Origin: a bacterium | GTDB taxonomy: Bacteria; Myxococcota; UBA727; JAUIJE01 | Reading direction: 5' to 3' | Length of the DNA stretch: 64,000 bases | NCBI GenBank assembly: GCA_030431455.1 | Contig: JAUIJE010000020.1 | Span: forward strand, 62,001 to 126,000 | Shown here: positions 41,403 through 64,000 of the stretch, in pieces | How positions within the stretch are numbered: position 1 is the first letter of the stretch | Layout: every line of letters begins with the position of its first letter | Translations under genes and position numbers: made by a program | Notes under the pieces: generated by a model | Told to the model about the DNA's origin: nothing | Databases searched by the model: none | What the model saw: the letters and a program-made list of their open reading frames with translations, nothing else

Positions 41403-43868
41403 ATGACTGCGGCGGGTCGAGTGATGTGGACGGCGGTGGTGTTGTCGGCGGCGCCGGGATGCAGCCTGTTCTTCAACCCCACCATCAACGCGTGTGACGC
41501 CGACGAGGACTGTCCCGCCGGAGAACAATGCACGGTGGACGGCCTCTGCGTCGAGCTGTCCGGCGACGGGGATGGCGACGGGGACGGGGATGGTGACGGA
41601 GATGGCGATGGCGACGGAGATGGCGATGGCGATGGCGACGGGGATGGCGACGGGGACGGCGATGGCGACGGGGACGGCGACGGGGACGGCGACGGGGATG
41701 GCGACGGGGACGGCGATGGCGACGGAGATGGGCATGGAGACGGTGATGGCGACGGGGACGGGGATGGCGACGGGGACGGTGACGGCGACGGGGACGGGGA
41801 CGGCGACGGCGACGGGGACGGGGATGGCGACGGGGACGGTGATGGCGACGGGGATGGGGATGGGGACTGTTTGACCCCGCCCAACGGGGCGTTGTTGTCG
41901 AACTGGTCGCCGGGTCCCCCCGCGGTGTTTGGGCAGACCTGGTCGGTCAGCGGTGATGTGAGCTGCGGGGCGACATGCACGTTCTACCCGGGGGGTGCCG
42001 TCTATGGCGAAGGGGCGTTTGTGCACGAGGCGCTTCGGCCCGGCACCGGCACGTCCGAGATGGTGTGCACCGATGGGAACGGGAGCCGCGAGGTGTACCA
42101 AGCGGCCGGCGCGGTGAGCTGTACGGCCTCGGGCCTCAGCGGCGATGTGTTGATCACCGACCAGACCGGGGTGGACAACCTGTCGAACGGCGGGGGCTGT
42201 TTCACCGTCGCTGGCGACGTGACCATCACCGGCCCCGCGGTGACCTCGCTGCTGCCCCTGTACGGCTTGGCCGGCGTCAGCGGTCGGCTTGTCATCTCCG
42301 AGACCTCCCTGGTCAACCTCGACGGGTTGGAGCTTTTGGGCAGCGTCGGCTCCTTGGTGGTGGGGGAGGCCAACACCGGCAACGACGCGTTGCTCGATGT
42401 CGACGCGCTCTTCTCGGTGGCCAACCAGCCGGCGGAGCTTTCGGTGGAGCAGGCGCCCGTGCTTGACCGGCTCTGGGGCATTCGTCACATCGGGTTGGTG
42501 GACGGCGATGTGCGCTTGACCGCGCTCCCCGTCGGGTTGCCCGTGGACTGGGCGCTCTACACCGTCACCGGGACCTTGCGCCTGTCCGCGCTGGCCGCGC
42601 TGACCGACCTCGACGCCTTGGCCAACCTCTCCTCTGCAGGCACATTGGAGTTGGCCAACCTTCCCGGCTTGGGGGACATCGACCTGCCCAACCCCCCTGA
42701 CCTCGATCGCTTGGTGCTCGAGAACAACAACGCCCTCACCACCATCACCGCCTTCCCGGTGGCGGTCGCGGGGCTCGACGAGTTGACCGTGCGCAACAAC
42801 AACCAACTCAGCAGCCTGGCGGGACTGGCCGGCGCGGCCTCGGGCACGGTGGACGCGCTCACGGTGTCCGGCAACACCGCGCTCTCGGTGCTCGACCTCG
42901 ACGCGGCGGTGTCGGCGGACCTCACCGTGCAGAACAACCCCGGTCTGCTCGCCATCGGCGACAACCTCTTGCCCGATTCATTCGCCGAGGTCGTGGTCAG
43001 CGAGAACACCCTGCTCACGGACCTGGGCGGCGTCGCCAACCTCGACGAGTGTGCCTCGCTGGCCATCACCAACAACCCCGCGCTCACCAACCTCGCGCTC
43101 CAAGTCGAAACCGTACACGGCAATTTGGGCATCACCGACAACCCCGGCCTGGTGCAGCTCACGCTGGACAACCTCACCACCGTGGGCGAGGACCTCGTCA
43201 TCTCCGGCAACTTCAACGTCTCCGGCCAGCTGCAGCGCGCCAGCGCGCCGGCCCTGCTCGACGTGGGCAGCGACCTTGTCGTGGGCCAGGTCACGGCCGG
43301 GCCCGGCGAGCCGGGCATCTCGTTTCCCCAGCTGCAGAACATCAACGGGGCCCTGGTGATCCAAGGCTGTGGCCTCGAGGGGAACAACAACCACACCCTC
43401 GATTTCTCGAGCCTGACCACCGCGTCGTCGGTGTGGATTCAGCAAAACAGCCTGTTCAATGACGTGACGCTCAACTTCTCGTCGCTGTCGGCGGTGGCCA
43501 CGACCTTCGAGGTCTCGGACAACCTCGGCACGTTCTTCACCGCGTTCGCCACCTCCGAGCCCGGCATGGTGACGTTCCGCTACGTCAACAACCCGAGCGT
43601 GCTCGCGTTCACGGACACGGGCCGGCTTGGGCTCGGGTTGGTCACCGGCGTGTTCGAGGTCACCGGCAACACCGCCATGGCCGACTTCAACATCACCACC
43701 AACCCCGACATCCCCAGCGGGGTCACGGTGGGCATCGACGGCAACGGCCCGGGCACGATGCTGTGCGCGGGCAATGGGTTGGCGGACACGCCCTTCGGCA
43801 TCAACTACTTCATCAGCCAGTACGTCATCGGGACCGTCGACCCCAACCAGTGTGAAGGCGGGGCCTGA
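41403..43868 (+). CDS. Large lipoprotein with long Gly-Asp linker and leucine-rich-like repeats
   Basis: 821 residues from ATG 41403, 5 nt after GGAGGG. Signal and lipobox: [14 protein letters not shown]. After a Cys motif ([19 protein letters not shown]), a Gly-Asp repeat of about 51 dipeptides fills residues 54-155. The rest is a solenoid of about 22-residue units with Leu/Val positions and Asn turns ([45 protein letters not shown]), similar to receptor-L or leucine-rich repeats. It is probably a surface-exposed binding or adhesion protein. Starts opposite crcB. Confidence 0.85.
41562..41867 (+). repeat. Gly-Asp coding repeat, about 51 dipeptides
   Basis: 306 nt of GGN-GAY hexanucleotides inside the lipoprotein gene (one unit reads Gly-His). 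Synonymous codons vary between units, so it is an amino-acid-level repeat more than a perfect satellite. The antisense frame reads Pro-Ser/Val-Ala repeats, not a gene. Confidence 0.95.
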
Positions 43869-43873
43869 CCGGC

Positions 43874-45652
43874 TCAGGGCGAATGGGCCACCGCCTCGAT
43901 GAACGCGGGCCCCTCGTCGCTGTCGCAGGACACCGCGTAGACCACATCGTCATCGGCCAGCGGCAAGGTAAAGCGGTAGCCGCGCCCGCTGAGCGCGACC
44001 TCGTCGAGCAGTGCCCCGGTCCGCGCGTTCAGGGCGATGAGCGTGCCCGGCTGACCGGGGGTGGTCTCCACCAAAAATGCCACTGGACCGCGCGGTGTCT
44101 CCACCAGGGCCACCCGCGAGGGGTGTCGGCGGAACCGCGTGCGGGCCTCGTCCGACCCCGGGGCGGGCCACTGCCAGGCCGCCTCCAGGCGGGGGCCGTC
44201 GTCGGTGTCGACCACCCGCAGCCCGAACACCCCCGCGTCCTGGGCGGCGTCGGGCATAAACGTCGCGACCAATGCCCAAGGACTCTCGCCCGGCGGGCTG
44301 AACACCGCGGGTTCGGTCACGATCATGCCCGCCCAATCCGCGGCACACGGTGCGCCCGGCACCCCGCAGATCGGCACCAGCTGCATGCGGTCGTGCAAGG
44401 TGCCGAGGTGCGCGGTGTCCACGAGATACACGCTGCCGTCCTTGGTGGGGTAGAGCAGGGCGTCGGCCCCGCCGGGGGTGCGCACCCGGGCCGGGGTGCT
44501 GCCCCCGATGTAGTCGAGGGCCTCCCAGCATTCGAACATGGTGAGGCCGTCGCATTCCCCGGTGGCGGGCACCGGGTGGCTTTGGCCCAGGGGCATGCGG
44601 GGCACGAACAGGTCGGGGCAGCTCTCCACACAATCCCGGGCGGGGGCGTCGGGGTCAAAGTCACTGCACAAGTTGTCATCGCAACCGGGGGCAAACGCGA
44701 GGTCGGCGGAGACCCGCATCAGGGTGTTGGCGTGATCGCCCCGGGCCAGGTCGAGCTGGCCGTTGCCGGGGGCGAACACCAGCGCGTCCTCGTCGTCGCC
44801 CGCGAGCACCAGAGGCCCGGAGGGGGCCCAGAGCCCGCCCCCGCAAACGCGGTCCCGTGAGCCCGACACCCCCGCCGGGCCACAGTCGGTCTCGGGGGTG
44901 GTGCACAACGGGGGCAGCACCGTCCAGGCCGCCAGGTCGACCGCGAACGCCCAACCGTGCCAAGGCTGGATGTCGCGGGCGTTGCCGAAGTTGACGACCA
45001 GGCGAGGCCCGCTCGGGCCCCGGGCGATGACCAACGCCGAGCGCAACAATGCATGTGCAGGGTCAAACGCCACCGGGCCACTGCCGTCGGGCGCGGGCAC
45101 GCTCCCTTCGAGGTCGAGCGGGGGGCGGTCGGCGCGCACCTCGTGGGCGACGACATCGATGCCCACCACCCGGTGTCGCAGGCGCGCGGTGAGCACCGAC
45201 CGCGCGTCGAGACCGGCGGCGGTGGTGTGGTAGCCCACGTACAAGGTGTCGCCGTCGAGCACCGGGGTCGCGACCACGAAGGCTTGCTCCCCCGCGGGCG
45301 CGGGCAACGTCACCCGCCACCGGGCCGCCCCGTCGTCGGGGGACAAGGCCACCACCTCGTGGCCCACCACCACCAGCACATCGCCCCCCGGCCCCCGCAC
45401 CGGGGAGGCCAAGCTGCACGCCCCGAAGGTCTCCCCGGGCGCCGCCGCCGACGGAAACCGCGCCGGCCCGAAGCGGAGGGTGAGCGCGCCATCGCCATCC
45501 CCGTCGCCGTCGCCGTCGCCATCCCCGTCCCCGTCGCCCGCGTCGGGGGCGCCGGCGTCTTCGCCCATGGGTCCCGCATCGGGGCCCGGCGGGGCTGGAC
45601 AGCCGGCCAACACCCATCCACCGCACAGGGTCGCCATCACGGTTCGGCGCAT
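43874..45652 (-). CDS. Lipoprotein with PQQ-like beta-propeller and short Gly-Asp linker
   Basis: 592 residues from ATG 45652 (a GTG five codons upstream is an alternative). Lipobox CGGWVLAGC. An eight-unit Gly-Asp linker (about residues 39-55) precedes beta-propeller blades of the PQQ/quinoprotein type, for example VVALSPDDGAARWRVTLPAP, GDTLYVGYHT, LIALNARTGALLDEVALSG. Cys-rich inserts (CDDNLCSDFDPDAPARDC, PICGVPGAPC) lie between blades. PQQ catalytic residues are not identified, so a binding or scaffold role is likely. Convergent with the preceding lipoprotein gene (5 nt between stops). Confidence 0.82.
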   Translation of the reverse strand: MRRTVMATLCGGWVLAGCPAPPGPDAGPMGEDAGAPDAGDGDGDGDGDGDGDGDGALTLRFGPARFPSAAAPGETFGACSLASPVRGPGGDVLVVVGHEVVALSPDDGAARWRVTLPAPAGEQAFVVATPVLDGDTLYVGYHTTAAGLDARSVLTARLRHRVVGIDVVAHEVRADRPPLDLEGSVPAPDGSGPVAFDPAHALLRSALVIARGPSGPRLVVNFGNARDIQPWHGWAFAVDLAAWTVLPPLCTTPETDCGPAGVSGSRDRVCGGGLWAPSGPLVLAGDDEDALVFAPGNGQLDLARGDHANTLMRVSADLAFAPGCDDNLCSDFDPDAPARDCVESCPDLFVPRMPLGQSHPVPATGECDGLTMFECWEALDYIGGSTPARVRTPGGADALLYPTKDGSVYLVDTAHLGTLHDRMQLVPICGVPGAPCAADWAGMIVTEPAVFSPPGESPWALVATFMPDAAQDAGVFGLRVVDTDDGPRLEAAWQWPAPGSDEARTRFRRHPSRVALVETPRGPVAFLVETTPGQPGTLIALNARTGALLDEVALSGRGYRFTLPLADDDVVYAVSCDSDEGPAFIEAVAHSP

Positions 45653-57817: not shown

Positions 57818-59506
57818 ATGCGGTGTTTGGTCCTTTCTCTCCTCGCGGTTGTGTCCCTCACCCTCTCCCTGGCGGGCTGTCCCAGCGAGCCTGGTGGCCT
57901 CGAGCCGGAGCCCAGCCCCGAGCCGGAGCCCGGGCCCGACGAAGGGGAGGAGGGTGGCCCTTGCCGGGCCGACGGCACCTGTGATGCCGACCTGCAGTGC
58001 CTGAGCGGGCTGTGCGTGGAGATTCCCGATGTCGATCGCGACGCCGGGCTGCCGGACGTGACCACCCCCGCGCCGGGCACCGAAGGGGGCCCCTGCCTCG
58101 CCAACGGCGTGTGCAACGACGACCTCCAATGCATCGCTGAGGTGTGCACCGACGTCGCCGGGGACGGGGATGGCGACGGGGATGGAGACGGCGACGGCGA
58201 TGGAGATGGTGACGGTGATGGAGATGGCGACGGAGATGGAGACGGCGATGGAGATGGCGACGGCGATGGAGATGGTGACGGCGACGGCGACGGCGACGGC
58301 GATGGGGGTGTGATCGGCGCCGACGCGGGCCCGCTGGTCTGGATTTGTGAACAAGGCTGGCTCGGCGATGGCTTTTGCGACTGCGGGTGCGGCGCGCCCG
58401 ACCCGGAGGATTGTGGCGATGACCCCGCGGTGAGCGAATGCCAATACTGCGTGCCCTGTGATGGGTTCCAGGTGATTCAGTGTACCAATCCACAGGCATT
58501 GGTGGACCCCAACAACTATTGGGAATGTGCCCCCGGGGTCGACGCGGGTGTCATCCCCGAGCCGGAGCCGTCCCCCGAGCCCGAAGGGCCTGCGCCCTCC
58601 TGGTGTGACTCCGACGCCGGCCCCCCGTTCGAGCTGTACCAGCCGCCGGGCGGATTCCCGGCCAACTGTGACAACCTGCCCACCGGGCTGACCGCGATCG
58701 AGATCACCGGCCCCATCGCCACCGAGGACCTCGCGTTCGACAACGCCGGCAATCTCGTGGGGGCGGACGGCAACGGCAACCTGTTCCGATCGCCCAGGAC
58801 CGGTCAGCCGGTGCTGTGGTCGCCGGACATCCCCAACGGGGACAATTTCATTGCCGCGGTCCGGTTCCTGCCCAACGGCGACCTTGTCTACGCCGGCACC
58901 GACACCGACGCGGTGTGGCGCGTGGACCAGTTCACCGGGGGCCGTACGTTGCTCTTTTCCTGCGGCGGCAACTGCTACCCCAACGGCATGACCGTCGACC
59001 TCACCGGACGCGTGTTCGTCGCCGAGCAGAACACCTCCCGGGTCCGCTGGGTCGACCCCGACACCGGCGAGAGCGAAATCGTGGCCAACAACCTGTTCAA
59101 CGCCAACGGCATCACCTTCAGCCCCGACTACCGCAAGCTCTACGTGGGCAGCTTTGGCGGCGGAACCATCACCCAGATCGAGGTCAACGACGACGGGACC
59201 TTCGGCACCCCGGTGGTGTTGCGGGCCCAGATCGGAGGCGGCGGCCTCGACGGCATGGCCGTCGACGAGTGCGCCAACGTGTACATCTGTGAATATGGCC
59301 CCGGCCGGGTGTGGCGCATCTCCCAAGACGGATGCTCCGCCGAGGTGGTGGTCGATCCCAACAGCGCGTGGATTCCCAACCTCCAGTGGGGGTCTGGGTT
59401 CGGCGAGTGGGACGAACGCATTCTGTACGTCGGCGACATCAACTCGAACACCACCTGGGAAGTCCCGGACATCGGGGTGGCGTCGAAGTTGCGGCCGTAT
59501 CCCTGA
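57818..59506 (+). CDS. Lipoprotein with Gly-Asp linker and SMP-30/NHL-like beta-propeller
   Basis: 562 residues from ATG 57818. Lipobox VSLTLSLAGC. Two short Cys-rich modules (GGPCRADGTCDADLQCLSGLC; GGPCLANGVCNDDLQC) and a 24-unit Gly-Asp repeat (residues 115-162) lead to a Cys-rich module, then a propeller of the SMP-30/gluconolactonase or NHL type. Its blades include TEDLAFDNAGNLVGADGNGN, NGMTVDLTGRVFVAEQNTSRVRW and NGITFSPDYRKLYVGSFGGG. Lactonase metal ligands are not certain. Surface-exposed; may bind a sugar or peptide. First gene of the envelope cluster with the dikinase-like protein, on the same strand, 47 nt apart. Confidence 0.85.
   Translation: MRCLVLSLLAVVSLTLSLAGCPSEPGGLEPEPSPEPEPGPDEGEEGGPCRADGTCDADLQCLSGLCVEIPDVDRDAGLPDVTTPAPGTEGGPCLANGVCNDDLQCIAEVCTDVAGDGDGDGDGDGDGDGDGDGDGDGDGDGDGDGDGDGDGDGDGDGDGDGDGGVIGADAGPLVWICEQGWLGDGFCDCGCGAPDPEDCGDDPAVSECQYCVPCDGFQVIQCTNPQALVDPNNYWECAPGVDAGVIPEPEPSPEPEGPAPSWCDSDAGPPFELYQPPGGFPANCDNLPTGLTAIEITGPIATEDLAFDNAGNLVGADGNGNLFRSPRTGQPVLWSPDIPNGDNFIAAVRFLPNGDLVYAGTDTDAVWRVDQFTGGRTLLFSCGGNCYPNGMTVDLTGRVFVAEQNTSRVRWVDPDTGESEIVANNLFNANGITFSPDYRKLYVGSFGGGTITQIEVNDDGTFGTPVVLRAQIGGGGLDGMAVDECANVYICEYGPGRVWRISQDGCSAEVVVDPNSAWIPNLQWGSGFGEWDERILYVGDINSNTTWEVPDIGVASKLRPYP
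58160..58303 (+). repeat. Gly-Asp coding repeat, 24 dipeptides
   Basis: 144 nt of GGN-GAY hexamers encoding residues 115-162 of the propeller lipoprotein, codon-mixed. Length is a candidate for strain variation. Confidence 0.95.
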
Positions 59507-59553
59507 GTTCTGACCTTGAAAGGGCCGCGGGGCCTCACGAGGGAGTGTAGACG

Positions 59554-61620
59554 ATGATGACGCGCGTGACGTGGTGCAGCCTGTTGACCTTGGCACTGTT
59601 GACCCCCCTGGGGGCGGGTTGCCCCACCGATCCTGGCGACGGCGACGGGGACGGCGATGGCGACGGGGACGGCGACGGAGACGGGGATTGGGAATGCACC
59701 ATCCCCGCGGGAGAAGAGCCTCCCTTCGCCGAGCAGATCGGCTGTCTGGAAGACTACTTGGCGTTGGCCTCCGATCCGGTGGTGGCGAGCATCCCCGGGG
59801 CGCAGTCGATGAAGACGGTGATCGACCGGGTGGACGGCAACCACCTCTATTTCCAGAACAGCAAAGAGTATTTGATCCACTGGGAGTTCGCGTCCGCCCA
59901 CCTCTCGGGCAACGGCCTGCCCATCGTGCCCGACCTCGGGCAGTTCAACGCGGTGGAGTACTACAGCCCCGATCGGCGTTTTATCCTCGGGGCGCTCACC
60001 TACTTTGCCGGCCCTGACATCTACGCGTTCGAGATCTCGCCGTATGACACTGCATCGCTGGAGTTCATCCAGACCGCGTTCGACCTGATCAAAGCCAATA
60101 CCTACTTTGGCGACCGCCTGCGCTTCCACCCCACGTCGGTGACGGTGGAGCAACGGGTGGCGGGCGCCGATCCGGACAAGCTCCCCATCGTCACCACCGA
60201 TGAGCTGTTCGCCGGCATCGACTACCAACCGCTCAACCTCGCCGAGGCCATCGGGTCGCTCCGATTCGTCAACGCCGACGAGCTCGCGGACACCTACTTG
60301 TCGTTCCGTGACATTGTGGTGCTCGACAACGTGCCCAATGACATTTCAGTGGTGAGCGGCATCGTCACCGAAGAGTTCCAGACCCCCCTCAGCCACATCA
60401 ACGTGCTGTCCCAGAATCGCGGCACCCCCAACATGGGCCTGCGCGGGGCGACCACCAACCAAAGCCTGCGCGACCTCGAGGGCAAGTGGGTGCGGCTCGA
60501 CGTCAACGCCCTGGACTGGACGGTGGAGGAGGTCACCCAAGAGGAGGCGGACCAATGGTGGGAGGACCATCGGCCGGACGCGGTCCAGGTGCCGAGCCTG
60601 GACACCTCGGTGACCGGGCTGTGGGACATGGCCGACATCTTGGACCACGAGCTGGGGCTCAAAGAATCGATCAAGGCCGTCATCCCTGCGTTCGGGGGCA
60701 AAGCGTCCCACTATGCAGCATTGGCGGAGGTCCCCGAGGTCCCGGTGCCGGCGGCGTTTGCCATCCCGGTGTCGTACTACGTGCAGTTCATGGAGCAGAA
60801 CGGCTTCGACACGCAGATCGAGGCCATGCTCGCCGACGACGAGTTCAACGGGAACGCCCAGACCCGGGACGCGCTCCTCGAGGATCTGCGCGACCAGATG
60901 ATGATCGCGCCGGTGGACGAGGCGTTTGAGGCGGAGCTCATGGCCAAGCTCGCCGCCGACTTCCCCGACACCCGCATGCGGTTCCGCTCGTCCACCAACG
61001 CAGAGGACCTTGATGGCTTCACCGGCGCGGGGCTGTACACCTCCAAGACCGGGGACCCCAACGACCCCGACAAGCCGGTGCTCGACGCCATCCGCGAAGT
61101 CTGGTCCAGCGTGTGGTTCTTCCGGGCCTATGAAGAGCGGAGCTACCGGAGCATCGACCACACCCAGGTGGGCATGGCGTTGCTTGTGCACCGCTCGTTC
61201 CCCGACGAGGACGCCAACGGCGTGGCCCTGACCGCCAACCCCTTCGACACCACCGGCCTAGAGCCCGGTTTTTACATCAACGTGCAAGAGGGCGAGGCCT
61301 CCGTGGTCAAACCCGACGCGGGGGTGAGCACCGATCAGTTCATCTACCAGTACGACCTGCCCGGCCAGCCGATCATCTTTTTTGGGCACAGCAATCTCAT
61401 TCCCCAGGGCGAGACCGTGCTCACCGTCGAGGAGACGTACCAGCTGGGCACGGCGTTGAAGAAGATCCACACGTACTTCTACGCCGCCTACGGGCCGCAG
61501 CCGGGGCAGAGTCCCTGGTACGCGATGGACGTGGAGTTCAAGTTTGACACCGCCCCCGGCAGCGACGTGAGCGAGCTGTGGGTAAAACAGGCCCGGCCCC
61601 ACCCCGGCCGCGGTCAATGA
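59554..61620 (+). CDS. Exported lipoprotein dikinase-like protein: phosphohistidine domain then PEP-synthase/PPDK-type ATP-grasp domain
   Basis: 688 residues. Lipoprotein signal (TRVTWCSLLTLALLTPLGAGC) and a 9-unit Gly-Asp linker (residues 28-45) precede an unknown domain to about 250. A phosphohistidine (swivelling) domain is seen as GIVTEEFQTPLSHINVLSQN with His281. The C-terminal ATP-grasp domain has FGGKASHYAAL (Lys383) and MRFRSSTNAEDLDGF (478-485), the PPDK/PEP-synthase nucleotide site. His domain before ATP-grasp is the order of glucan water dikinase, opposite to PEP synthase. Family members phosphorylate glucans, pyruvate or rifampin. An exported ATP-using enzyme is puzzling: where the ATP comes from is unknown. 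Catalytic residues look intact. Confidence 0.85.
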   Translation: MMTRVTWCSLLTLALLTPLGAGCPTDPGDGDGDGDGDGDGDGDGDWECTIPAGEEPPFAEQIGCLEDYLALASDPVVASIPGAQSMKTVIDRVDGNHLYFQNSKEYLIHWEFASAHLSGNGLPIVPDLGQFNAVEYYSPDRRFILGALTYFAGPDIYAFEISPYDTASLEFIQTAFDLIKANTYFGDRLRFHPTSVTVEQRVAGADPDKLPIVTTDELFAGIDYQPLNLAEAIGSLRFVNADELADTYLSFRDIVVLDNVPNDISVVSGIVTEEFQTPLSHINVLSQNRGTPNMGLRGATTNQSLRDLEGKWVRLDVNALDWTVEEVTQEEADQWWEDHRPDAVQVPSLDTSVTGLWDMADILDHELGLKESIKAVIPAFGGKASHYAALAEVPEVPVPAAFAIPVSYYVQFMEQNGFDTQIEAMLADDEFNGNAQTRDALLEDLRDQMMIAPVDEAFEAELMAKLAADFPDTRMRFRSSTNAEDLDGFTGAGLYTSKTGDPNDPDKPVLDAIREVWSSVWFFRAYEERSYRSIDHTQVGMALLVHRSFPDEDANGVALTANPFDTTGLEPGFYINVQEGEASVVKPDAGVSTDQFIYQYDLPGQPIIFFGHSNLIPQGETVLTVEETYQLGTALKKIHTYFYAAYGPQPGQSPWYAMDVEFKFDTAPGSDVSELWVKQARPHPGRGQ
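59635..59688 (+). repeat. Gly-Asp coding repeat, 9 dipeptides
   Basis: 54 nt of GGN-GAY hexamers just after the lipobox of the dikinase-like lipoprotein, forming a flexible surface spacer. Confidence 0.95.
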
Positions 61621-61652
61621 CAAGCGGCGGCGACGCCAAGAGAGGGTGAAGC

Positions 61653-62717
61653 ATGCAACGGTTGGGAATTGTGTTCGCGGTGGTGCTCGGGTTGGTCCCG
61701 GGGTTGGCCTTGACCGCGTGTCCGGGGAGCACCGGGGATGGCGATGGGGACGGCGACGGTGATGGGGACGGCGACGGTGACGGCGACGGTGATGGGGACG
61801 GTGATGGGGACGGCGACGGGGACGGGGACGGCGATGGCGATGGCGACGGGGATGGGGACGGGGACCCGATGTTGCGCGGGCCGTGTGCGCCCGCCGACCG
61901 CGTGGGCGCGTTTTCGGTCAGTGACCAGGGAACGTTCTCGTCGGTGAGCGGGAGCGTCGCCGACGGGGTGGTCCCGGTGACGATCCTCACCGAGGTCGAC
62001 ACCGAGGGCGCGTGCCGGTTGATGCGGCGCGAAAATCCCTTCTGCAACCCGCCGTGCGGGCCGAACGAGACCTGCGACTTTGACGGCACGTGCTTGCCCT
62101 ATCCGCTCAACCAAGACGTGGGCACGGTCACCGTCGATGGGCTGCTCGTCGACGTGAGCATGGACCCCGTGGTCCCGGGCAACTCGTACTTTGACACATC
62201 GGTGCCGCACCCCGCGTTCGATCCGGGGGCGGCGATCACCGTGACCGCGGCCGGCTCCGACAACCACGCCGGCTTTACCCTATATGGGCACGGCATCACC
62301 TCCCTCGAAGGGGTGGTCGAGAACCTCGAGATCGAGGACGGTCAACCGCTCGACGTGACCTGGACCGCCGGCGACGACCCCGACGAACGCATGCGGGTGT
62401 CGATCAACATCGACCAGCACGGCAACTCCCCCATCACCCTGTTCTGTGACTGGACCGATTCGGGCCAAGGCACGGTGCCCGCGTCGTTGGTGAGTCAACT
62501 GGTCAACGCCGGGGTCACCGGCTTCCCCAACGCCGACCTCGTGCGGTTGAGCGAAGACCACGTCGAGCACGACTTCGGCTGCATCGAGTTCACGGTCAAC
62601 GCCCCGCGGGGCTTGGACGGCTTCACCGTGGCCGGTCACACCCCGTGCAACAACAACGCGCAGTGCCCCGACGGCCAAGTGTGCAACGTGCCGATCAACA
62701 CCTGCGAAGACCCGTGA
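61653..62717 (+). CDS. Lipoprotein with Gly-Asp linker and unknown beta-rich domain
   Basis: 354 residues, GAGAGGG site upstream of ATG 61653. Signal and lipobox: GIVFAVVLGLVPGLALTAC. A 22-unit Gly-Asp repeat (residues 28-71) follows at once, then a domain with SVADGVVPVTILTEVDTEGAC, a Cys module (NPFCNPPCGPNETCDFDGTC), and a C-terminal Cys-rich finger (PCNNNAQCPDGQVCNVPINTC). No family recognised. It lies directly between the dikinase-like and phosphatase genes and converges with the latter (10 nt between stops). Confidence 0.82.
   Translation: MQRLGIVFAVVLGLVPGLALTACPGSTGDGDGDGDGDGDGDGDGDGDGDGDGDGDGDGDGDGDGDGDGDGDPMLRGPCAPADRVGAFSVSDQGTFSSVSGSVADGVVPVTILTEVDTEGACRLMRRENPFCNPPCGPNETCDFDGTCLPYPLNQDVGTVTVDGLLVDVSMDPVVPGNSYFDTSVPHPAFDPGAAITVTAAGSDNHAGFTLYGHGITSLEGVVENLEIEDGQPLDVTWTAGDDPDERMRVSINIDQHGNSPITLFCDWTDSGQGTVPASLVSQLVNAGVTGFPNADLVRLSEDHVEHDFGCIEFTVNAPRGLDGFTVAGHTPCNNNAQCPDGQVCNVPINTCEDP
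61734..61865 (+). repeat. Gly-Asp coding repeat, 22 dipeptides
   Basis: 132 nt of GGN-GAY hexamers encoding residues 28-71 of the lipoprotein. Same design as at 41562, 58160 and 59635. Confidence 0.95.
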
Positions 62718-62727
62718 TCGACCGCGG

Positions 62728-63741
62728 TCAGCCTTCGTCCGCGCCGGCCAAGGACGCGGCGAAGGTGTGCACCGCCGCTTCCTGGCTCGCGGTCTCGACC
62801 GAGCCGGGGCGCAGCGCGCGCACATGGGCCAGGGCCTCGTCGGCGGTCATGCCCTGGTGCACAAAGTACGCAGCCAAGAACGTGCCCGTGCGGCCCATGC
62901 CGCCCAAACAGTGGACAGCCACCGCGCCGTCGTCGGCGTAGGCGGCCTCGACCTCTTCGATGAAGGTGCCGAGCTGGGCTTGGCTGGGCGCGGTGAAGTC
63001 GGGCACCGGCAAGCGCACGTGGCGCAGGCCGTGCGCCTCGACCAGCGCGCTGTCGACGGTCCACTCGGTGAGCGACACCAACACGGTCACGCCCTCGCTG
63101 GCCAAGGCCTGCAAGCTTGGCTCGAGCCGGGTGGTGCGAAACCCGGTGCCCGCGGCCCCGGCCAAACGGTGCGCGTCGACCCAGGAAAAGCCCGGGATGG
63201 TGGCGCGGGCATCGGGCTCGAGAATCAGCGGCACGCGGGCCTCGTCGGGGTGGGCGTCATCGTAGGCGTCGAGCAACGAGAATACCGCCGCGGGGGCATC
63301 GACGTAGACCGCGTGGTGGTCGTCGTCGCGCCAGCGGTGGCGCACATCCGCGGGGCTGGCCGACAAGCGGGCGGTGGACGCGGGGAGCGCGAGCAGCCCG
63401 TCGTCGTCACGCTGGGCGAGCGAATCGACCACCGACCACGGAAAGAAGGTGAGCGCGGGGGTGGCGAGGCCGGCCTGGTGCACGGCGAGCCAGGTGGCGG
63501 CGCGGATGCCGTACGCGTCGGCGGCGGCGCAGGGCGTGTCGAACGCGGCCGCGAGACCGGGCAGGTCGGTCACGGGATGGGGCGCGTGGTCGACGACAAT
63601 GTCGGGACAGAATGCGGACTGTTCGATCAGGACCCGGACCGACGGGTGCGCGGGGCCGTCGATGGCCGCGCCCAGCTCACCGCTGGGCCAGCTGCCGCAG
63701 CCCGCGACCAGGGAGATCAGAACCAGAGAGACCGCACGCAC
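62728..63741 (-). CDS. Lipoprotein dual-specificity / tyrosine phosphatase
   Basis: 337 residues from GTG 63741. Lipobox SLVLISLVAGC. The C-terminal half is a Cys-dependent phosphatase: signature HCLGGMGRTG (H-C-x5-R) after VAV, and a general-acid candidate Asp in RLPVPDFTAPSQ. The N-terminal half (residues 25-185) is a domain of unknown function. Lipid anchoring puts it outside the inner membrane. It could remove phosphate from protein or from carbohydrate, as the glucan phosphatases of the same superfamily do. Opposite strand to the dikinase-like gene but only 1.1 kb away. Confidence 0.9.
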   Translation of the reverse strand: MRAVSLVLISLVAGCGSWPSGELGAAIDGPAHPSVRVLIEQSAFCPDIVVDHAPHPVTDLPGLAAAFDTPCAAADAYGIRAATWLAVHQAGLATPALTFFPWSVVDSLAQRDDDGLLALPASTARLSASPADVRHRWRDDDHHAVYVDAPAAVFSLLDAYDDAHPDEARVPLILEPDARATIPGFSWVDAHRLAGAAGTGFRTTRLEPSLQALASEGVTVLVSLTEWTVDSALVEAHGLRHVRLPVPDFTAPSQAQLGTFIEEVEAAYADDGAVAVHCLGGMGRTGTFLAAYFVHQGMTADEALAHVRALRPGSVETASQEAAVHTFAASLAGADEG

Positions 63742-63846
63742 TCGATCACTGTAGCATTCGGCCGGCGGCCTTCCGGGCCGGCCCGCGGACCTGCAGCTGG
63801 AGCTGTAACAGGATGAAAATAAAGGATTTTTCTGGTCGCGACCCGC

Positions 63847-64000
63847 TCAGAAAATCTGGGTGCAGATGTACCGGTTCTCGGTCGCACAGTTGACGTCGTT
63901 CCAGCCCCCGTCCTCGCTGCGCAGGAGCTCGACGCAGTCTTCGGCCCCGCCGACGAGGGGGTCGTTGGGTTCGCCCGGCGCCCAATGCTCGTACACCGGG
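63847..64000 (-). CDS. C-type lectin-like domain protein, C-terminal fragment
   Basis: The last 50 codons of a minus-strand gene whose start lies beyond the window, too short to stand out by length. The translation ends WAPGEPND...EDCVELLR...GGWNDVNCATENRYICTQIF. This is the C-terminal half of a C-type lectin domain with the Ca2+-binding EPN and WND motifs intact (mannose-type) and the two conserved Cys of the long disulfide. It should bind sugar or another ligand. The 105 nt to the phosphatase start could hold that gene's promoter. Confidence 0.82.
   Translation of the reverse strand, partial: PVYEHWAPGEPNDPLVGGAEDCVELLRSEDGGWNDVNCATENRYICTQIF

Follow-up and report, generated by a model that had tools for sequence, protein, structure and literature searches.

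Genes and domains at the locus

The DNA analyzed here, referred to as the window, is a 64,000-nucleotide stretch of a Myxococcota contig whose end lies at window coordinate 65565. Five genes fill the region from 57.8 to 65.2 kb, three on the plus strand and two convergent to them on the minus strand. The genes and their domains are listed below.

57818-59506, plus strand: SMP-30/SGL beta-propeller lipoprotein (Pfam SGL, E 1.9e-16) with a (GD)24 linker
59554-61620, plus strand: dikinase lipoprotein, whole gene, 688 aa (Pfam PPDK_N, E 5e-24 over residues 379-683)
59554-59688, plus strand: signal peptide, lipobox LGAGC (Cys23) and (GD)9 linker of the dikinase, read from the sequence
59701-60219, plus strand: N-terminal domain of the dikinase, residues 50-222, with invariant His109 (alignment and model)
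60220-60537, plus strand: phosphohistidine swivel domain of the dikinase, residues 223-328 (VIA Z 11.6 to the RPH swivel domain)
60394-60396, plus strand: codon of the catalytic-type His281 (TPLSHINV), invariant in 78 orthologues and 6 paralogues
60607-61611, plus strand: ATP-grasp domain of the dikinase, residues 352-686 (VIA Z 29.7 to RPH, 27.7 to PEP synthase)
61653-62717, plus strand: partner lipoprotein (GD3) with a (GD)22 linker, FN3/Ig-like, with a Cys-rich C-terminal end; the core conserved partner
62728-63741, minus strand: DSP/PTP-type phosphatase lipoprotein (Pfam PTP-SAK, E 5e-22; DSPc, E 6e-11)
63847-64000, minus strand: 3' end of the gene for a C-type lectin protein, which extends beyond the window to 65238 (Lectin_C, E 3.9e-15)

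As seen in the list, the four features named in the preliminary description (propeller, dikinase, phosphatase and C-type lectin end) are real, with minor corrections. GD3 was not named in it, yet this gene matters most. The gaps between the propeller, dikinase and GD3 genes are 47 and 32 bases, and therefore these genes probably form one operon. All three proteins carry acidic (GD)n linkers behind the lipobox (n = 24, 9 and 22, respectively). Lipoprotein linkers of this type lie at 41562-41867, 45491-45538, 58160-58303, 59635-59688 and 61734-61865 in the window, and about 45 further places in the same genome match the dikinase query solely through the signal and (GD)n linker. The phosphatase has the lipobox LVAGC and an intact active site, HCLGGMGRTG (HCx5R). 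The lectin protein of 463 aa also contains Somatomedin_B (E 6e-8), and its lipobox, GGFC, is poor.

In the AlphaFold model of the dikinase (mean pLDDT 87, 52-row alignment), the ATP-grasp domain matches RPH (5hv3) with VIA Z 29.7 and 2.3 A over 292 residues and PEP synthase with VIA Z 27.7, and the swivel domain matches the C-terminal swivel domain of RPH (5fbu) with VIA Z 11.6. The best PDB sequence matches of the protein are PEP synthase and pyruvate phosphate dikinase. Judged by these two domains in sequence and model, the protein is a predicted member of the PEP-synthase/PPDK/GWD superfamily. A Pfam PEP-utilizers match at residues 369-397 was set aside because it falls inside the ATP-grasp domain. 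The N-terminal domain of about 170 residues is covered by no structure match listed, which is not proof of a new fold.

Pfam and the model agree that the phosphohistidine domain precedes a C-terminal ATP-grasp domain, which bears out the GWD-like domain order proposed earlier and is the order of plant GWD/PWD. Among Pfam families, GWD1_pHisD comes closest to the swivel domain, with a weak match: it is sub-threshold in the window dikinase, and 14 of 52 members match with a best E of 2.8e-4. Compared to GWD/PWD, the window dikinase is a secreted bacterial lipoprotein with another N-terminal domain and no starch-binding module. No CBM match was found by Pfam in any of the 52 members, with CBM45 and CBM20 starch-binding modules sought, and no sugar-binding domain was detected on the dikinase. 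Owing to the absence of starch-binding modules, the protein, whose activity is a prediction, is not filed as a GWD, and it would work like enzymes of the GWD/RPH kind. From PEP synthase and pyruvate phosphate dikinase, with which it shares the PPDK_N domain with matching residues, it differs in having no pyruvate/PEP barrel domain, in its domain order, which is reversed relative to PEP synthase, and in being a lipoprotein.

Residues of both active centers are kept throughout the family. His281, K383, R478, E484, D485 and S497 are unchanged in all 78 aligned orthologues; D659 and E661 are altered in one row (conservatively, to E and D), and D659, E661, Q679 and R681 are absent from two incomplete rows. 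Six distant paralogues (about 26-40% identity) keep every tested catalytic residue (6/6). The loss of essential ATP-grasp residues, for which the preliminary description had suggested looking, has thus not occurred. Through the alignment to PEP synthase, K383, R478 and S497 are the likely counterparts of K22, R117 and T136 of RPH, substitutions of which abolished rifampin phosphorylation (PMC4844700). Such conservation in 78 homologues and six distant paralogues would be needless in a pseudoenzyme, that is, a binding or structural protein keeping the fold without catalysis. That explanation draws on the lack of any known extracytoplasmic ATP, and we regard it as highly unlikely.

RPH and HpeHI share the ATP-binding residues, and their ATP-grasp and swivel domains superpose well on the model. 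RPH starts with the ATP-grasp domain, followed by the rifampin-binding domain and a C-terminal histidine domain; in comparison, the domain order of the dikinase is reversed, and no rifampin-binding (RPH-type middle) domain was detected in it. RPH and HpeHI are cytoplasmic small-molecule kinases, unlike the lipoprotein dikinase. The nearness of the ATP-grasp fold to RPH nevertheless raises an explanation in which the protein is an envelope kinase for small molecules, the target being an incoming antibiotic or aromatic compound or the producer's own secreted metabolite. The two-component dikinase HpeHI provides a precedent for the adaptation of the superfamily to small molecules (PMC12167813). 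No catabolic or resistance genes, however, are among the recurrent neighbors, and the partner, propeller and lectin-like lipoproteins together with CotH, VTC and DUF4956 better fit a polymer or envelope task. A small-molecule target is therefore considered rather unlikely.

Several paralogues differ in architecture. A more distant group contains paralogues in which the dikinase and LTD form one protein, and at L072:8128-11364, L074:8447-11404 and L077:7637-11004 the paralogues are fused to, or lie directly behind, lamin tail domains. A paralogue in the genome of the window (L075:8529-11162, 36% identity) keeps all catalytic residues, shows no obvious signal peptide where it appears to begin and adjoins a PAS/histidine kinase/receiver gene. 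In L078 and L079 (G032:C442 and G047:C224), an insert of about 550 bases separates the swivel and ATP-grasp domains, with a frame of 879-923 codons.

Distribution and conserved neighbors of the dikinase

Orthologues of the dikinase with 56-62% identity exist in 8 of the 57 other genomes of a sample of relatives. A larger set of 80 dikinase loci (51-64% identity) was taken from named genome contigs, and neighbors were counted by profile searches of six-frame translations around them. Nearly all of these loci are titled Myxococcota, Myxococcales or Deltaproteobacteria, and cultured strains of Sorangium, Nannocystis, Archangium, Pyxidicoccus and Polyangium carry the gene. Typical copies were also found in records titled Phycisphaerae, Fibrobacter, Klebsiella pneumoniae and Rhodobacterales (L080, L109, L150 and L153), which are probably mislabeled or contaminated bins. 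A strict lipobox is present in 58 of the 80 dikinases, 47 of 59 partners and 32 of 36 DUF1554-like proteins, with near-matches in most others.

GD3 adjoins the dikinase in 59 of the 80 loci, and it does so at each of the 8 loci with an orthologue in the sample of relatives; about half of the 21 loci without it have a contig ending near the dikinase. Its C-terminal end is Cys-rich and of the Myxo_Cys_RPT type. The model of GD3 has a pLDDT of 87 (core above 90); a sequence match in the PDB was sought and none was found, and the fold matches are weak ones of the FN3/Ig type with Z at most 7. Therefore, a fold type is given for this protein and no function. Matches of the propeller and partner proteins to MSCRAMM and TrAA12 were rejected, as they involve the GD linker only.

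The SMP-30 propeller is a neighbor of the dikinase at 16 of the 80 loci, and its place in the cluster, as first described, is upheld. A DUF1554-like (lectin-like) lipoprotein, an assignment that is itself weak (E 1e-4 to 0.03), occurs in 36. The two were found together in none of the 80 loci, where 7 would be expected (hypergeometric 1.5e-5, kinship ignored), and the choice between them changes 5 times on the dikinase tree. Since they never co-occur, they look like alternative modules. A propeller lipoprotein at L177:2832-4817 has its blades broken by a long Cys-rich repeat insert.

Clustering of all open frames around the 80 loci revealed more recurrent neighbors, with the Pfam names VTC, DUF4956, HlyD, LTD, Porin_O_P, purple acid phosphatase and a second CotH type. 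Within 6 kb of the dikinase, profiles detected VTC in 17 loci, DUF4956 in at least 14 and CotH in at least 11, as well as LTD in 8, porin in 10, HlyD in 7 and purple acid phosphatase in 4; a second DUF4956 profile matched 7 loci, overlapping the first in part. At least one of VTC, DUF4956 and CotH lies within this distance in 28 of the 80 loci. The other 52 show none of the three there, and some of their contigs are short. The genome of the window (7.7 Mb) has 2 VTC, 2 DUF4956 and 5 CotH matches, and at this density the 0.68 Mb of flanking DNA should contain about 0.2 VTC, compared to the 17 loci observed. No VTC was found in 12 control loci (178 kb) around unrelated phosphatase genes in the same phylum.

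In many genomes these genes share an operon with the module. Tight same-strand operons have the order VTC-DUF4956-LTD-GD3-DUF1554-dikinase (L152), VTC-DUF4956-GD3-DUF1554-dikinase (L144), VTC-DUF4956-lipoprotein-dikinase (L115, L118, L122 and L135), dikinase-CotH-DUF4956-HlyD (L108 and L111) and dikinase-GD3-propeller-VTC-DUF4956 (L085). For the association with CotH, VTC or DUF4956, the dikinase tree requires 17 changes or more, a number inflated by short flanks; the association is thus spread over the family and is not confined to one lineage. No VTC, DUF4956 or CotH was found in the window, where the copy consists of propeller, dikinase and partner only; a CotH-VTC-DUF4956 cluster of the same genome lies elsewhere (C26:135-139 kb). 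A lipoprotein family without a Pfam match, seen at L100:7923-8636 and 10 other loci, often stands between DUF4956 and the dikinase.

Pel polysaccharide clusters of Gram-positive bacteria are known to include CotH, a poly-phosphate polymerase and DUF4956 as adjoining accessory genes (PMC7112168). At many homologous dikinase loci, though not in the window, the same three families lie side by side in or next to the dikinase operons; here, the lipoprotein dikinase, the partner and recognition lipoproteins are present in addition, and no Pel genes are among the recurrent neighbors. This linkage to CotH, VTC and DUF4956, not to glucan metabolism, further separates the dikinase from GWD/PWD.

Some of these neighbors also agree with phosphorus acquisition. 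Porin_O_P-like, purple acid phosphatase-like and VTC genes near some loci would suit an enzyme for the cleavage of ATP outside the cell, such as that released by lysed prey, with water as the final acceptor, and ATP would be present at that location only upon cell lysis. Hydrolysis, however, needs no costly two-site swivel enzyme, and scavenging of nucleotides or phosphate would leave CotH and the recognition lipoproteins unexplained. It is thus an unlikely explanation.

The phosphatase and the lectin

The preliminary description took the cluster for a reversible phosphorylation system of a surface glycan or other polymer, with conserved co-occurrence of dikinase and phosphatase genes as a prediction. 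Across the 80 loci this co-occurrence does not hold: a homologue of the phosphatase was found near only 1 (L159), and the phosphatase as an obligate partner was rejected. The lectin, likewise near 1 of 80, was rejected as a partner and is no conserved neighbor. The phosphatase gene is on the strand opposite to the dikinase operon and convergent with it.

For the phosphatase, a whole-genome search gave a second result. Its closest homologue among the searched genomes (G051:C428, 47% identity) lies directly behind partner-lipoprotein and propeller genes on a contig of 4.8 kb, on which no dikinase was found. By our own estimate, in which such loci cover about 20 kb out of 6.4 Mb, the probability of such closeness by chance is a few in a thousand. 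The next-best homologue (41%) is the one at the dikinase locus L159, tied with two that are away from the module; as L159 came into the sample through its dikinase, it is not independent of the search. Twelve further homologues are not near the module. The phosphatase is therefore a rare accessory, neither a core member nor a chance neighbor, and its membership in the cluster stands in this reduced form. A metallophosphatase-like gene, recognized by motifs only, adjoins the phosphatase, partner and propeller cluster of G051 (L177:3-1283).

Similar to the phosphoglucan phosphatases SEX4 and LSF2, the window phosphatase has the DSP fold and the C-x5-R motif. It differs from them as a lipoprotein with PTP-SAK/Tc-R-P as its best family and no carbohydrate-binding module in the Pfam scan; such a module is dispensable for the activity of LSF2 (PMC12892837). 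A closed cycle, in which the dikinase writes, the phosphatase lipoprotein erases and the lectin and propeller bind the glycan, would accord with the GWD-like order and intact kinase residues, with the intact phosphatase motif, and with the homologues beside partner and propeller in G051 and near the module in L159. The counts of 1 in 80 for phosphatase and lectin, the convergent gene, the G051 contig without a dikinase and the 12 homologues away from the module make such a cycle quite unlikely.

A proposed lipoprotein phosphotransfer module of Myxococcota

Taken together, the window appears to hold one copy of a conserved extracytoplasmic lipoprotein phosphotransfer module of Myxococcota that is tied to the CotH-VTC-DUF4956 system, a reading to which we give about an even chance. 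The original observation is confirmed, and its interpretation is partly supported and redirected: a phosphorylation system outside the cytoplasm agrees with the intact residues, the location and the association with CotH, VTC and DUF4956, while the lectin and, for the most part, the phosphatase drop out of it.

In this superfamily, the ATP-grasp domain is where ATP is split, and the swivel histidine carries the phosphate to a second center. By analogy, the ATP-grasp domain of the dikinase would split a nucleoside triphosphate, and His281 of the swivel domain would carry the phosphate and then hand it over to an acceptor at a second catalytic center that may involve the N-terminal domain. This domain, GD3 and the interchangeable propeller or DUF1554-like lipoprotein probably serve to dock the enzyme on this acceptor, for which a surface polymer or protein is the likeliest candidate. 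Phosphatases, either the DSP lipoprotein or the purple acid phosphatase, would join the module only occasionally. The weakest point is the supply of phosphate, which may be extracellular nucleotide or exported polyphosphate; we know of no ATP source outside the cytoplasm, and this counts against the module reading. Since the module shares an operon with VTC, DUF4956, CotH and LTD in many genomes, it probably works with an envelope phosphate system.

A more specific form of the phosphotransfer module can be proposed, in which VTC and DUF4956 make and export polyphosphate, and the dikinase and CotH use it, directly or via locally made nucleotide, on envelope polymers. Eukaryotic VTC couples polyphosphate synthesis to membrane transport (PMC9911596), and the bacterial VTC is called a polyphosphate maker after its domain name. 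We put this forward as a speculation with a small chance of being correct; if true, it would answer the missing ATP source.

Dikinases with ATP-grasp and phosphohistidine domains are familiar as cytoplasmic or plastid enzymes. The superfamily is known; what is new is the lipoprotein form and its gene context, as no description of a dikinase within the CotH-VTC-DUF4956 system was found in the open-licence literature, and literature searches on secreted myxobacterial dikinases, GWD with lipoproteins and myxobacterial CotH returned nothing relevant. The presence of the gene in cultured myxobacteria makes these proposals testable. A widely conserved lipoprotein dikinase in operons with VTC and CotH points to phosphotransfer outside the cytoplasm, the energy source of which becomes a concrete question. 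Its inheritance together with a partner, and frequently in operons with VTC and a second kinase, suggests that the envelope of these bacteria may host an undescribed phosphorylation system.
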